Origin: Cyanobacteriota bacterium
GTDB taxonomy: Bacteria; Acidobacteriota; Vicinamibacteria; Vicinamibacterales; UBA2999
Length of the DNA stretch: 33,119 nucleotides
Direction of reading: 5' to 3'
Assembly (NCBI GenBank): GCA_019752015.1
Contig: JAIEMQ010000073.1
Coordinates: 1-33,119 of the forward strand
Each line of letters opens with the position of its first letter. Positions within the stretch are counted from its first letter, which is position 1. The notes under the pieces were generated by a model, which was given only the letters and a program-made list of their open reading frames with translations, ran no database searches and was not told where the DNA came from. Below, piece by piece: positions 24,860-33,055 of the stretch. The position numbers were made by a program, and so were the translations under genes.

Positions 24860-24894
24860 ATCTCGGATCTCAGATCTCGGATTTCAGAATTGGG
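24860..24894. repeat. Heptad tandem repeat spanning a stop codon
   Basis: Five consecutive 7-bp units are seen on the plus strand: ATCTCGG, ATCTCAG, ATCTCGG, ATTTCAG, AATTGGG. The last two are degenerate. The minus-strand gene's TGA (24886-24884) lies within the fourth unit, so the array begins in coding sequence and continues into the gap. Confidence 0.75.
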
Positions 24895-26612: not shown

Positions 26613-26697
26613 AATCTCACTTCTCACTTCTCACTTCTCACTTCTCACTTCTTACTTCTTACTTCTTACTTCTTACTTCTTACTTCTTACTTCTTAA
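26613..26697. repeat. Heptad tandem repeat array between sigma and anti-sigma genes
   Basis: On the plus strand: a partial unit, four TTCTCAC copies (26621-26648), six TTCTTAC copies (26649-26690) and a final TTCTTAA (26691-26697). The sigma gene stop (TAA on the minus strand, 26689-26687) is supplied by the sixth TTCTTAC copy. Because 7 is not a multiple of 3, the TAA in successive units closes all three minus-strand frames. The two unit types form separate homogeneous blocks, a sign of recent slippage expansion. Confidence 0.92.
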
Positions 26698-27451: not shown

Positions 27452-28054
27452 GTGGGCGTGAACTTTCCAAACGACGAAATCTTCCTGACGACAGAAGAAG
27501 TCCTGGAATACCTCCAGGTCAACCTTCGGACGGTCTACCGGCTGATCAAGGCCGGGAAGATTCCGGCGGTTCGGGTCGGCCGGCAATGGCGGTTCCGGAA
27601 GCGGGACATCGACGCGTGGCTGGACACGCAGCGCCCGCGCGGGGAGCGTGCGCCGGCAGCCGCGGTCGCCGATCGGCCCCTGGCCCGCGACGGCCGCAGC
27701 CGCGTGCTCGTCGTGGACGACGAATCCAGCATTCGAGAACTCCTGCAAAAAACCCTGGCCCTTGCCGAGTATGACGTCGATACGGCGCCGGACGGCCGCG
27801 CCGCGCTCGAGCGCCTGCGTCTCGGCAACTACGATCTGCTGATCGCCGATCTGAAGATGCCGGGTATGGACGGATTGACGTTGATCCGCGAAGCGAAGCG
27901 CCTCAAGGCGGATCTGCCTGTAATCATCATCACCGGCTTCTCCACCGAGTCGAGCGCCATCGAAGCCGTCAATCTCGGCGTCGCGGGATATCTGACCAAG
28001 CCGTTCCGCGTGCCGCAGGTCCTCGCCGCCGCCGCTCGCGCGCTCGGCGAATAG
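27452..28054 (+). CDS. HTH (excisionase/MerR-like) - receiver fusion response regulator
   Basis: The protein has about 200 residues. The N-terminal domain (about 10-58: FLTTEEVLEYLQVNLRTVYRLIKAGKIPAVRVGRQWRFRKRDIDAWL) is the excisionase-type winged HTH (helix_turn_helix_17 style). A short Ala/Arg linker leads to a CheY-like receiver (about 84-200): D89/D90 acid pocket, phospho-acceptor D133 in LIADLKMPGMDG, Thr in IIITGF, and Lys in YLTKPF. DNA binding placed before the receiver is the reverse of the common REC-HTH order. Start: GTG 27452 (AGAGA upstream) or GTG 27458; the frame upstream is antisense of the sigma gene. No partner kinase adjoins it; the NtrB-like kinase at 30378 is the nearest candidate. 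Confidence 0.87.
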   Translation: MGVNFPNDEIFLTTEEVLEYLQVNLRTVYRLIKAGKIPAVRVGRQWRFRKRDIDAWLDTQRPRGERAPAAAVADRPLARDGRSRVLVVDDESSIRELLQKTLALAEYDVDTAPDGRAALERLRLGNYDLLIADLKMPGMDGLTLIREAKRLKADLPVIIITGFSTESSAIEAVNLGVAGYLTKPFRVPQVLAAAARALGE

Positions 28055-28059
28055 ATCCA

Positions 28060-28269
28060 TCCACAGATTTACCGATTACACAGATGGCCGCTTGCGGCGG
28101 CGAACGCTCGCGGCGTCGCTCCGCGACGCGTCCGCAACGAAGCAACGCAAGAATGAGTCACCGCAGTTCTCCTGACTCATTCTTGCGGTGCTTCGTTGCG
28201 GACGTCAGGCCGGCCGGAGGCCGGCCAGCGAGCGTCGGTCAATCTGTGGAATCGGTCCAATCTGTGGAT
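28060..28269. repeat. Long imperfect palindromic element with terminal inverted repeats
   Basis: The whole gap between the HTH-receiver and ABC-F genes reads as one imperfect palindrome. The terminal arms (about 28060-28086 and 28242-28269) share, in inverted order, ATCTGTGGAT and AATCGGT. The core is a 32-bp hairpin with one mismatch (28129-28160 with 28173-28204, loop 12 nt, AAGAATGAGTCA next to the loop). Between terminal arms and core lie further imperfectly matching GC-rich segments (GCTCGC, CTCCG), with GGCCGGCC twice at 28208-28226. No ORF of merit is inside. This is the form of a non-autonomous MITE/REP-like intergenic repeat. It ends 15 bp before the ABC-F start and may act as a 3' terminator for the receiver gene. 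Confidence 0.75.
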
Positions 28270-28283
28270 AAAGTTTTTTAGCC

Positions 28284-30278
<1,995 letters not shown>

Positions 30279-30377: not shown

Positions 30378-31562
30378 ATGGGCTTTGCTCAACCCGGCTC
30401 GGCAACAATGCTGATGGCCAAAACTGCTGGGCACTCCACGGGGCAACTGGACGTGTTTTTCCGCCACATGGTGGGAAACATGCGCAATGGCGTGCTGGCC
30501 ATCGACCGCCAGGGCGGGGTCGTGCTCCTGAACGACGAAGCCCGCAGACTCTTTCATGTGAAGCCCGGAGCCGTTGAAGGACGGTCCTTCGGGGACGTCC
30601 TCCACGAGCATCCGGACATCGTCCGCGTGCTCGGCGGCGCGTTCGAATTGAAGTCGCTGCCCAACCGCGCCGAGCTGCGCCTCAAGTCCACCGACACCGT
30701 GATCGGCTACACGCTGTCGCTCGTTCGCGACGACCACGGCGAGCCGGTGGGCGCGGCGCTGTTCTTCAAGGACCTCACCCACGTCGAGCAGATTGAGGAG
30801 CGCGAGCGCCTGCGCGATCGGCTCGCGGCGGTCGGCGAAATGGCCGCGGTGATGGCGCACGAAATCAAGAACCCGCTGGCCGGCATCGAGGTGCTCGCCG
30901 GTTTGCTGCGTCGCAAGGTCCCGGACAACGCCGAAGCACAGGGGCTCGTCAAGGACATCATCAACGAAGCGAAAATGGCGAACGCGATCGTGCAGGAAGT
31001 GCTCGCGTTCGTGCGTCCGGTGCGGTTGCAGGTCGATCGCACGTCGCTCAGCGAAGCGGTCGGCAGCGCCGTCTCGCTCGCCGACGGCAAGGCGACGCGC
31101 GGCAGCATTCTGGTTGACGTGATCGTGCCGCGCGATTTGCCGTCGCTCGGCGCCGATCAACATCAGCTGACGCAAGTCTTCGCCAACCTGCTGATCAACG
31201 CCTACGAAGCGCTCGAGGGACGCGGCCGCATCGAAGTGTCGGCGCGGCTTGCCAAGACCGCGTCCGACGGCGCGCTGCTGCCCGACGGACATCAGCCGGT
31301 GCCCACCGTCGTCGTGGACGTTTCCGATGACGGGCCGGGCATGCCGGCCGACATCGCGGAAAAGATCTTCAATCCGTTTTTCACGACCAAGGCGCAAGGC
31401 TCGGGGCTCGGCCTCGCGATCGTCCGCAAGATCGTGGACGCGCACGACGGCCGCATCGACATGACGACGCAGGACGGACGCGGCACGCGGTTCCGCGTCA
31501 CGCTGCCGGTTGAACCACATAAGCAGCCGGCCATCAGGCCGACTGGGCAACACGGAAGTTGA
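30378..31562 (+). CDS. PAS-domain sensor histidine kinase (NtrB-like)
   Basis: The protein has about 394 residues with no membrane segment, so it is a cytoplasmic sensor. A PAS-like domain (about 25-130: MRNGVLAIDRQGGVVLLNDEARRLFHVKPGAVEG and GAALFFKDLTHVEQIEE) precedes a HisKA dimerisation domain with H161 in MAHEIKNPLAGI. The HATPase domain follows: N-box NLLINAYEAL, G1 DDGPGMP, F-box FFTTK, G2 GSGLGLAIVRK. This matches NtrB/AtoS-type kinases paired with sigma-54 activators, and such an activator follows directly. Start alternatives are GTG 30363, ATG 30378 and ATG 30408; 30378 is a compromise, as AAGGGG lies too close for certainty. The stop (TGA 31560-31562) runs into a heptad repeat tract. 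Confidence 0.92.
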   Translation: MGFAQPGSATMLMAKTAGHSTGQLDVFFRHMVGNMRNGVLAIDRQGGVVLLNDEARRLFHVKPGAVEGRSFGDVLHEHPDIVRVLGGAFELKSLPNRAELRLKSTDTVIGYTLSLVRDDHGEPVGAALFFKDLTHVEQIEERERLRDRLAAVGEMAAVMAHEIKNPLAGIEVLAGLLRRKVPDNAEAQGLVKDIINEAKMANAIVQEVLAFVRPVRLQVDRTSLSEAVGSAVSLADGKATRGSILVDVIVPRDLPSLGADQHQLTQVFANLLINAYEALEGRGRIEVSARLAKTASDGALLPDGHQPVPTVVVDVSDDGPGMPADIAEKIFNPFFTTKAQGSGLGLAIVRKIVDAHDGRIDMTTQDGRGTRFRVTLPVEPHKQPAIRPTGQHGS

Positions 31563-31611
31563 TCGGGACCGGGGATCCGGGATCGGGGATCCGGGGATCA
31601 GGGATCAGGGC
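31561..31611. repeat. GC-rich heptad-like tandem repeat between kinase and regulator
   Basis: Directly after, and overlapping, the kinase stop codon lies a run of units of mostly 7 bp built on ATC(C/G/A)GGG: 31575-31581, 31582-31588, one 8-bp unit at 31589-31596, then ATCAGGG at 31597-31603 and 31604-31610. It fills most of the gap to the NtrC start, so slippage would change intercistronic spacing. Confidence 0.75.
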
Positions 31612-33025: not shown

Positions 33026-33030
<5 letters not shown>

Positions 33031-33055
33031 TCCTAGTCCTAGTCCTAGTCCCAGT
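33026..33055. repeat. Hexad tandem repeat at the NtrC-like stop codon
   Basis: Four perfect CCTAGT units (33026-33049) and one CCCAGT (33050-33055). The gene's TAG stop is the TAG of the first unit. The remaining bases to the window end hold only a weak GCGTTT/AAACGC dyad (33062-33092) and no supportable gene. Confidence 0.85.

Follow-up and report, generated by a model that had tools for sequence, protein, structure and literature searches.

A palindromic intergenic element with inverted iteron ends and its putative link to genes of the GxxExxY family

Introduction

Homing endonuclease genes form small elements that center on a nuclease gene and do without a classical transposase or a target-site duplication. 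Several other described systems share part of their features with the element analyzed here. Bacterial MITEs, in the parts of the source that we draw on (PMC10969869), are likewise short and gene-less, have inverted ends that are common to gene-carrying elements, and are dispersed over intergenic sites. The REP/REPIN repeats with their RAYTs and the TIR-flanked tyrosine transposases (sections of PMC3733652) are similar in that small palindromes are found mostly downstream of genes, while the flanking ends of the gene family are also scattered alone and vary between the genes. The intervening sequences of 23S rRNA with an S23 ORF, described as selfish elements in the passages used of PMC4990558, resemble it as small, selfish-looking units with one short gene and terminal inverted repeats that form a long stem. 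Finally, the TAACTGA repeats of Beggiatoaceae (part of PMC4679880) consist of iterated short intergenic units, occur sporadically across phyla and have been discussed for their possible mobility.

The window analyzed in this study (the whole stretch of DNA, 33,119 nucleotides) is found on contig C51 of a genome of 5.92 Mb in 82 contigs (G000). It contains a palindrome that we consider, on the basis of sequence comparisons, rather probably a non-autonomous mobile element with ends recognized in trans by GxxExxY. The latter is a protein family of sparse distribution, often present in multiple copies, that is named from its motif only.

The palindrome in the window

A sequence-only reading had described a nested palindrome with a near-perfect core hairpin and no coding capacity, and on these points it holds. 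The palindrome is 211 bp long (28059-28269), lies in the gap that separates two protein genes and is itself gene-less; its core pairs at 31 of 32 positions (28129-28204). Folding of a 251-nt stretch around it gives -153.5 kcal/mol versus -90.7 (sd 5.0) for shuffles (z = -12.5), with 0 of 200 shuffles equally low. The upstream neighbor is a response-regulator-like gene (the name is a reading of the translation) with a TAG stop at 28052-28054, and the palindrome starts 4 bp past this stop codon. The parts are the following.

28059-28269, no strand: whole element, inverted iteron arrays enclosing a three-hairpin module, no gene (sequence, genome search, fold)
28059-28085, no strand: left iteron array, three units of ~9 bp with a diverged middle unit (read; the array recurs in other copies)
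28104-28111, no strand: outer stem of the module, left arm ACGCTCGC (folds)
28113-28129, no strand: small hairpin H1, stem 7 bp, loop TCC (fold and structural descriptor)
28129-28204, no strand: core hairpin, 31/32 pairs, loop 12 nt (structural descriptor)
28208-28226, no strand: small hairpin H3, stem 8 bp, loop GGA (fold and structural descriptor)
28228-28235, no strand: outer stem of the module, right arm GCGAGCGT (folds)
28241-28269, no strand: right iteron array, the left array inverted (read; TRF repeat at 28235-28268)
28274-28279, + strand: T-run 3' of the hairpin, possible terminator use (read)
28284-30278, + strand: ABC-F-like gene with ATG at 28284, the downstream neighbor, outside the element (name read from the translation)

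The iteron array consists of 9-bp tandem units, AATCTGTGG, AATCGGTCC and AATCTGTGG(AT), mirrored at the left end; in other copies, most ends have two or three clear units. The terminal motif had been read as occurring three times with AATCGGT spacers. The exact 10-mer ATCTGTGGAT is present once on the + strand (28260-28269) and once inverted (28059-28068); at 28242, where the third occurrence would lie, the sequence reads ATCTGTGGAA, and the ‘spacer’ AATCGGT is a diverged unit of the 9-bp array. Read-through termination at the T-run (28274-28279) is a possible side effect of the element.

TRF also reports an almost perfect array of heptamers (TCTTACT/TCTCACT, 11.7 copies) at 26615-26696, at the 3' end of a sigma-factor-like gene, with 7-bp units resembling the S23-class ends treated below. 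More 6-7-bp tandem arrays occur at or near gene ends (CGGGATC at 31561-31610, CCTAGT at 33026-33055, ATCTCAG at 24860-24888), and the window may thus hold several solo iteron arrays.

A gene-less family in the same genome

A DNA search of G000 with the palindrome returned 52 match rows at E <= 1, many of which are short ends, and the iteron pattern with up to two mismatches matched 80 times versus 18 for the reversed pattern. By reading the fetched places, we counted 18 gene-less elements with paired inverted arrays of the window type, located on contigs C51 (the window), C11, C61, C10, C27 (two), C3, C6, C2, C30, C40, C28, C12, C22 (two), C9, C13 (near 49.0 kb) and C45, the last with CACCGATT units. 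Three further elements with window-class ends carry a GxxExxY gene. No array pair was found in the portion read of L064, L066, L067 and L069, and no array cluster in the iteron scan of L031, L032, L070 and L071; L072 has an array pair of another class (GGCCACAGAAGGCGCAGAAAG). The genome-wide search for other intergenic copies proposed by the sequence-only reading thus shows that the palindrome is not single-copy, and the argument against mobility that this reading would have drawn from a single copy falls away because 18 gene-less copies are present.

The window element is short and gene-less, has inverted ends and exists in several dispersed copies, as expected of a MITE. The earlier suggestion of a dispersed, MITE-like non-coding family is borne out by these copies together with the variable slot occupancy in relatives described below. 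No target-site duplication of the window copy was found by reading. Mechanical ORFs served to measure the distance to neighboring genes for 19 elements (16 of the 18, the GxxExxY element of C13 and two elements of C1). In 13 of them an edge is no more than 13 bp away from a start or stop codon (overlaps of up to 12 bp included), and the near codon is a stop in 10 of these 13.

Some loci are composite. At L021, L029 and L063 a second iteron type (CGCAGAG / CTCTGCG) occurs both within the CACAGATT element and next to it, at opposite sides, a layout resembling two interleaved or nested elements. Three loci of genome G064 (L233, L234 and L244) are short iteron elements with a common interior, within a repeat whose similarity extends past the iterons. 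When 400 kb of contig C1 were screened for 8-11-bp arrays irrespective of sequence, 2 pairs in inverted and 1 in direct orientation were obtained, which is no census.

The three-hairpin module

According to reading and folding, 13 of the 18 gene-less elements contain the same module: an outer stem, a small hairpin, a core stem of ~30 bp with a 12-18-nt loop, a second small hairpin and again the outer stem. The structural descriptor recovers all three hairpins in 9 of the 13, lacks one small hairpin in L018 and L024, and misses L021 and L028, which have bulges in their cores. The module is also located within three GxxExxY elements (L074, L075 (twice) and L077). The descriptor scan covered 400 kb of contig C1 and found two long cores there, both being modules between CACGAAG-type inverted iterons. 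Elements of more than one iteron class therefore carry the module.

The core arms are 97.0% paired with their own partner versus 49.5% with those from other copies (bulges shorten the arms of L021, L028 and L077 in this comparison). The pair-by-pair comparison was limited to L017, L018 and L074 (the window arm is shifted by one pair). Between any two of these copies, 4 positions have changed in both arms with the base pair preserved, and 1-4 have changed in one arm alone. Both selection on the structure and DNA-level palindrome correction would explain the kept pairing. The mispair bias (26 G-T versus 10 A-C) was left unused as a test of RNA selection since the arm finder favors G-T. With Rfam 15, none of the 18 loci reaches a gathering score; the 9 matches at E up to 0.5 are all sub-threshold.

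The loops of the small hairpins H1 and H3 contain GNA or its complement TNC in 26 out of 29 cases among the modules of G000. Loops of the C(GNA)G form have exceptional stability in single-stranded DNA and would suit a DNA-hairpin intermediate.

GxxExxY genes and their flanking arrays

G000 encodes seven GxxExxY genes, and all seven were read as lying between inverted arrays of 8-11-bp units. These units differ between the seven elements and agree between the two ends of each. The iteron class of the window is present at three of them (L075, L077 and L078). The ends of the window element are inverted CRC-R/G-A-type units, the same class as in the GxxExxY elements of this genome, with diverged middle units in the window. 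The copy on C13 (L022, L075) has two modules with the GxxExxY ORF between them. In its frame (~71.0-71.4 kb) an in-frame start codon is seemingly missing, and this gene may be a decayed copy.

GxxExxY corresponds to TIGR04256 and to Pfam PDDEXK_3, a PD-(D/E)XK nuclease family. The assignment was checked on 4 proteins, and the PDDEXK_3 profile matches 43 out of 43. Among these 43 proteins D74, E84 and Q98 are invariant and K86 is present in at least 90% (numbering of the L078 protein). The AlphaFold model of the L078 protein (mean pLDDT 90.0, pTM 0.83) gave nothing at E <= 0.001 in Foldseek (best 1.2e-3). The nearest structure among the Foldseek candidates is SSO0001 (Z 9.7, rmsd 4.3, 102 aligned, 14% identity), and the Holliday-junction resolvase Hjc scores Z 6.8; such likeness of a predicted fold is no proof of function. 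A PDB sequence search with GxxExxY gave no match, and neither did PHROG for three of the proteins, while PADLOC reports weak Cas4 matches for three of four.

A scan across species genomes confirmed at least 564 GxxExxY relatives, the best 80 of which were retained; the tree set represents 17 named phyla. Testable loci, with at least 300 bp on both sides, number 77. Under a strict detector, arrays of two or more units flank the gene on both sides in the expected orientation in 47 of these 77 (5/77 in the wrong orientation, 6/300 in the genomic control), and arrays of three or more units in 32 (2/77 and 0/300, respectively). The remaining 30 loci fail the strict test, which we count against a role of GxxExxY; in the flank alignment several of them show other or imperfect units and some show nothing. 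Likewise counted against it is a simpler flank test, in which 22 of the 77 loci exceed the 99th percentile of mismatched flanks.

The iteron class was readable for 72 out of 84 proteins, three of 87 being excluded without an open frame of 90 aa (class T 45, G 15, E 7, K 5). On a quick protein tree (118 columns, many open forks), iteron class changes 10 times versus a shuffled mean of 25.1, with 0 of 200 shuffles as low. Classes T, G and E cluster; class K does not and is counted against the explanation. The nearest protein from another phylum shares the iteron class in 58 of 69 cases, a number reached by 0 of 500 label shuffles within phyla (mean 41.5, maximum 54). By these patterns, iteron ends and GxxExxY protein travel together, even across phyla.

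We aligned the ends of 20 more GxxExxY loci from eight genomes of another genus (seven species and one of a sister genus). Most were read as having matched arrays of yet other units; at L279, L283 and L286 the end alignments are not iteron arrays, and L280 and L282 have short ones only. The ~45-50-bp end of one GxxExxY element (L277) matches many other places in the genomes of the G131 genus, some on both strands at one spot; solo ends are therefore common in this genus. A target-site duplication was not detectable across 47 GxxExxY loci (mean 2.32 versus 2.43 for mismatched flanks), which also counts against the explanation. Insertion into terminator hairpins was considered and rejected: inverted identity does extend beyond the iterons at L123, L136, L155 and L177, but the excess is mostly in the nearest 4-8 bp. 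Viral contigs gave 3 pattern matches, none confirmed, and phages gave no match. Eight plasmid records match, of which three were read: L272 has clear inverted arrays, L274 loosely similar inverted stretches and L273 none of the class.

Array distribution in the phylum

The phylum sample comprises 149 genomes of at least 90% completeness, 59 of which encode GxxExxY and 78 S23. Exact CAGATT-class arrays are found in 7 genomes, all with GxxExxY (reversed control 0/149), and CRCRRAG-class arrays are present three or more times in 32 genomes, again all with GxxExxY. At one or more matches, 43 out of 52 genomes encode the protein; the other nine have one or two matches and are counted against the association. 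The reversed CRCRRAG pattern is positive in G018 (1), G174 (26) and G181 (13). For the union of both classes (CAGATT, or three or more CRCRRAG), 35 out of 35 genomes from 16 families encode GxxExxY, or 33 out of 33 without G174 and G181; the Fisher tests of this co-occurrence ignore phylogeny. CRCRRAG arrays outnumber the GxxExxY genes by more than two to one in 24 genomes, with 35 arrays in G087 and 38 in G103, each with one gene.

Sorted by gene content, arrays occur in 0/34 genomes with S23 only, 7/15 with GxxExxY only, 28/44 with both and 0/56 with neither. S23 genes do not explain the array distribution. Counted against the GxxExxY explanation are 24 genomes with GxxExxY and without either array class in number, such as G139 with 28 genes and none.

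Slot occupancy in relatives

For the window slot, 60 genomes were searched, the best 30 loci fetched and 23 measured (our own included), with gaps read from the DNA. In this look for empty-site orthologues, which had been proposed earlier, the slot is near-empty in 10 of 14 measured relatives outside the genus (0-20 bp; 52-182 bp in the other four) and filled in all 8 congeners, by 43-216 bp of other sequence. These fillings were read as inverted units such as GGGGCTTAG or GGGCTTGAG in L093, L095, L096 and L099, and as GC-rich hairpin arrays in L094, L097, L098 and L100. The species compared are too distant to reveal one clean insertion of the window copy, which is counted against the explanation.

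A second slot, probed with a GxxExxY element, was followed in the genus of G131 (41 genomes searched, 30 loci (L295-L324), 28 with both flanks). By reading, 5 of the 28 loci contain the GxxExxY element, 10 GTCAGCT heptamers, 5 GTCTGGA heptamers with GC hairpins and 6 CCAAGACA-type elements (four gaps of 116-118 bp, two of 810-814 bp). Two are near-empty, L314 and L305, where the left flank aligns less far. The longer CCAAGACA elements have an ORF of 232 codons, which in L301 matches HNH (PF01844, E 1.8e-5). Across species, four different inverted-iteron families are thus found at this slot, most elements being gene-less, and unrelated inverted-iteron elements therefore use one place behind one stop codon. 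Mobility of the element family is, as judged from these sequences, well supported.

S23 genes between inverted arrays

Similar architecture surrounds S23 genes. Among 12 S23-family matches in G000 (8 over the cut-off), L081, L084, L085, L087 and L088 have inverted flank scores of 34.5-50.5, above all mismatched controls (maximum 32.5); L080 and L086 score 22-25, L090 17, and L082, L083, L089 and L091 at most 11.5. For the phylum S23 (PF05635) loci L325-L354, 27 of the 30 fetched have full flanks, and their mean is 24.3 versus 10.6 for 702 mismatched pairs. Fourteen of the 27 exceed the 99th percentile (22.5), with units of mostly 7-8 bp. A score of 342.5 for one mismatched pair is probably explained by L330 and L332 being almost identical loci with opposite orientations.

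A possible mechanism and its alternatives

In the mechanism that we propose, members of the family have arrays of about three 9-bp iterons, inverted to each other, at their two ends. Fuller members have GxxExxY as a single gene between the arrays, and gene-less members keep the ends, here around a three-hairpin module. GxxExxY produced elsewhere in the genome would recognize the iterons and cut or nick the element ends, perhaps as hairpins or cruciforms, after which the element would be copied or moved to another intergenic gap, often directly behind a stop codon. Repair-coupled copying after the cut, or hairpin or single-stranded intermediates, are candidate routes without a target-site duplication. 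We infer GxxExxY as the enzyme, the iterons as its binding sites and the chemistry. In favor of this explanation we count the dispersed family, the common ends, the co-inheritance of iteron class and protein clade, the co-occurrence of arrays with the gene, the variable slots, and the conserved nuclease residues and confidently modeled fold of the protein.

The main doubt on GxxExxY as the enzyme is that the same architecture exists around a non-nuclease. As S23, which is no nuclease, and HNH genes also sit between similar arrays, a shared external mobilizer is possible. The elements would then be mobile with GxxExxY, S23 and HNH as passengers or accessories, and a shared host or trans-acting system, such as repair- or replication-coupled hairpin copying, would move them. 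We regard this as unlikely, yet as an alternative of some weight: the architecture, and at one slot even the insertion place, is common to unrelated genes, and the missing target-site duplication fits it as well. Against it, CAGATT and CRCRRAG arrays track GxxExxY and not S23 (0/34 of the S23-only versus 7/15 of the GxxExxY-only genomes), and iteron class follows the GxxExxY clade. This tracking also weakens a different explanation, an RNA-level device (terminator, RNase III site or mRNA stabilizer) that spreads mainly by ordinary recombination and in which RNA selection keeps the pairing. The pairing kept despite sequence divergence, the edges within 13 bp of a stop codon in 10 of the 19 measured elements and the T-run 3' of the hairpin are in its favor; DNA-level palindrome correction could equally keep the pairing, the slot is near-empty or otherwise filled in relatives, and the 18 loci gave no Rfam match at gathering score. 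We hold such a device to be improbable. A large regulatory RNA hairpin had also been said to fit by the sequence-only reading; in fixed form it finds no support here as the main explanation, and its single-copy version is contradicted by the dispersed copies.

That reading had also suggested mobilization by a RAYT/Y1 transposase. The genome has 13 Y1_Tnp matches, the small GC hairpins look REP-like, and a short CACCGATTAA-iteron element is located ~0.9 kb from one Y1 locus (L015). None of the 8 Y1 loci examined out of these 13 is bounded by the window iterons or the three-hairpin module, however, and other inverted ends are present at 5 of them (scores 24.5-30 versus at most 20.0 when mismatched). 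That a RAYT/Y1 transposase of this genome moves the element as a REPIN-like repeat is therefore highly improbable. If GxxExxY does act on the iterons as we propose, it would gain a testable role, namely recognition of the repeat arrays on either side of its own gene, which these genomes also contain at scattered places, in some cases dozens of times.

Comparison with known systems

The occurrence of inverted iteron ends around GxxExxY in many phyla points to a class of tiny mobile elements, widespread and apparently without a published description, to which this nuclease would belong. None of six iteron strings was found in the papers searched, a scope that mostly excludes subscription journals and preprints, and the top listings on GxxExxY, S23 and related families contain no description of such an element, which does not prove its absence from print. 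In the part seen of PMC8934634, GxxExxY is mentioned in an unrelated context.

A broader idea, which we find conceivable while leaning slightly against it, is an undescribed superfamily of minimal inverted-iteron elements. Each class would have its own iterons and one small protein (GxxExxY with 9-11 bp, HNH with ~9 bp, the four-helix S23 with 7-8 bp), gene-less hairpin derivatives would be moved in trans to places behind stop codons, classes would compete for slots, and the S23 of rRNA intervening sequences would form one branch. If GxxExxY has the role proposed above, there would be a nuclease-based, non-transposase route to mobile palindromic repeats, which would account for a class of intergenic hairpins and tie the S23 gene found in rRNA intervening sequences to elements of this kind.

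The known systems differ from the window element in specific ways. Compared with MITEs as treated in the available parts of PMC10969869, the ends here are 9-bp iteron arrays, the associated protein is a PD-(D/E)XK nuclease and not a known transposase, and there is no target-site duplication. REP/REPIN sequences are 20-40-bp palindromes tagged with GTAG or CGTC at one end; the window element as a whole measures 211 bp and has iteron ends, and its small GC hairpins look REP-like. GxxExxY is also an enzyme family unrelated to those in the sections used of PMC3733652, its ends are iteron arrays, and the examined Y1 genes have other ends. The TAACTGA repeats, as far as the consulted part of PMC4679880 goes, are mainly direct and not inverted pairs, and a nuclease association is not seen there. 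In contrast to the S23 intervening sequences of the passages cited from PMC4990558, the window element lies between protein genes, not within a 23S rRNA gene, and has no S23; the S23 genes of the phylum are nevertheless found between inverted 7-8-bp arrays. Homing endonuclease genes likewise center on a nuclease gene, but gene-less copies are present here at many different sites, and classical site-specific homing alone is insufficient to account for them.
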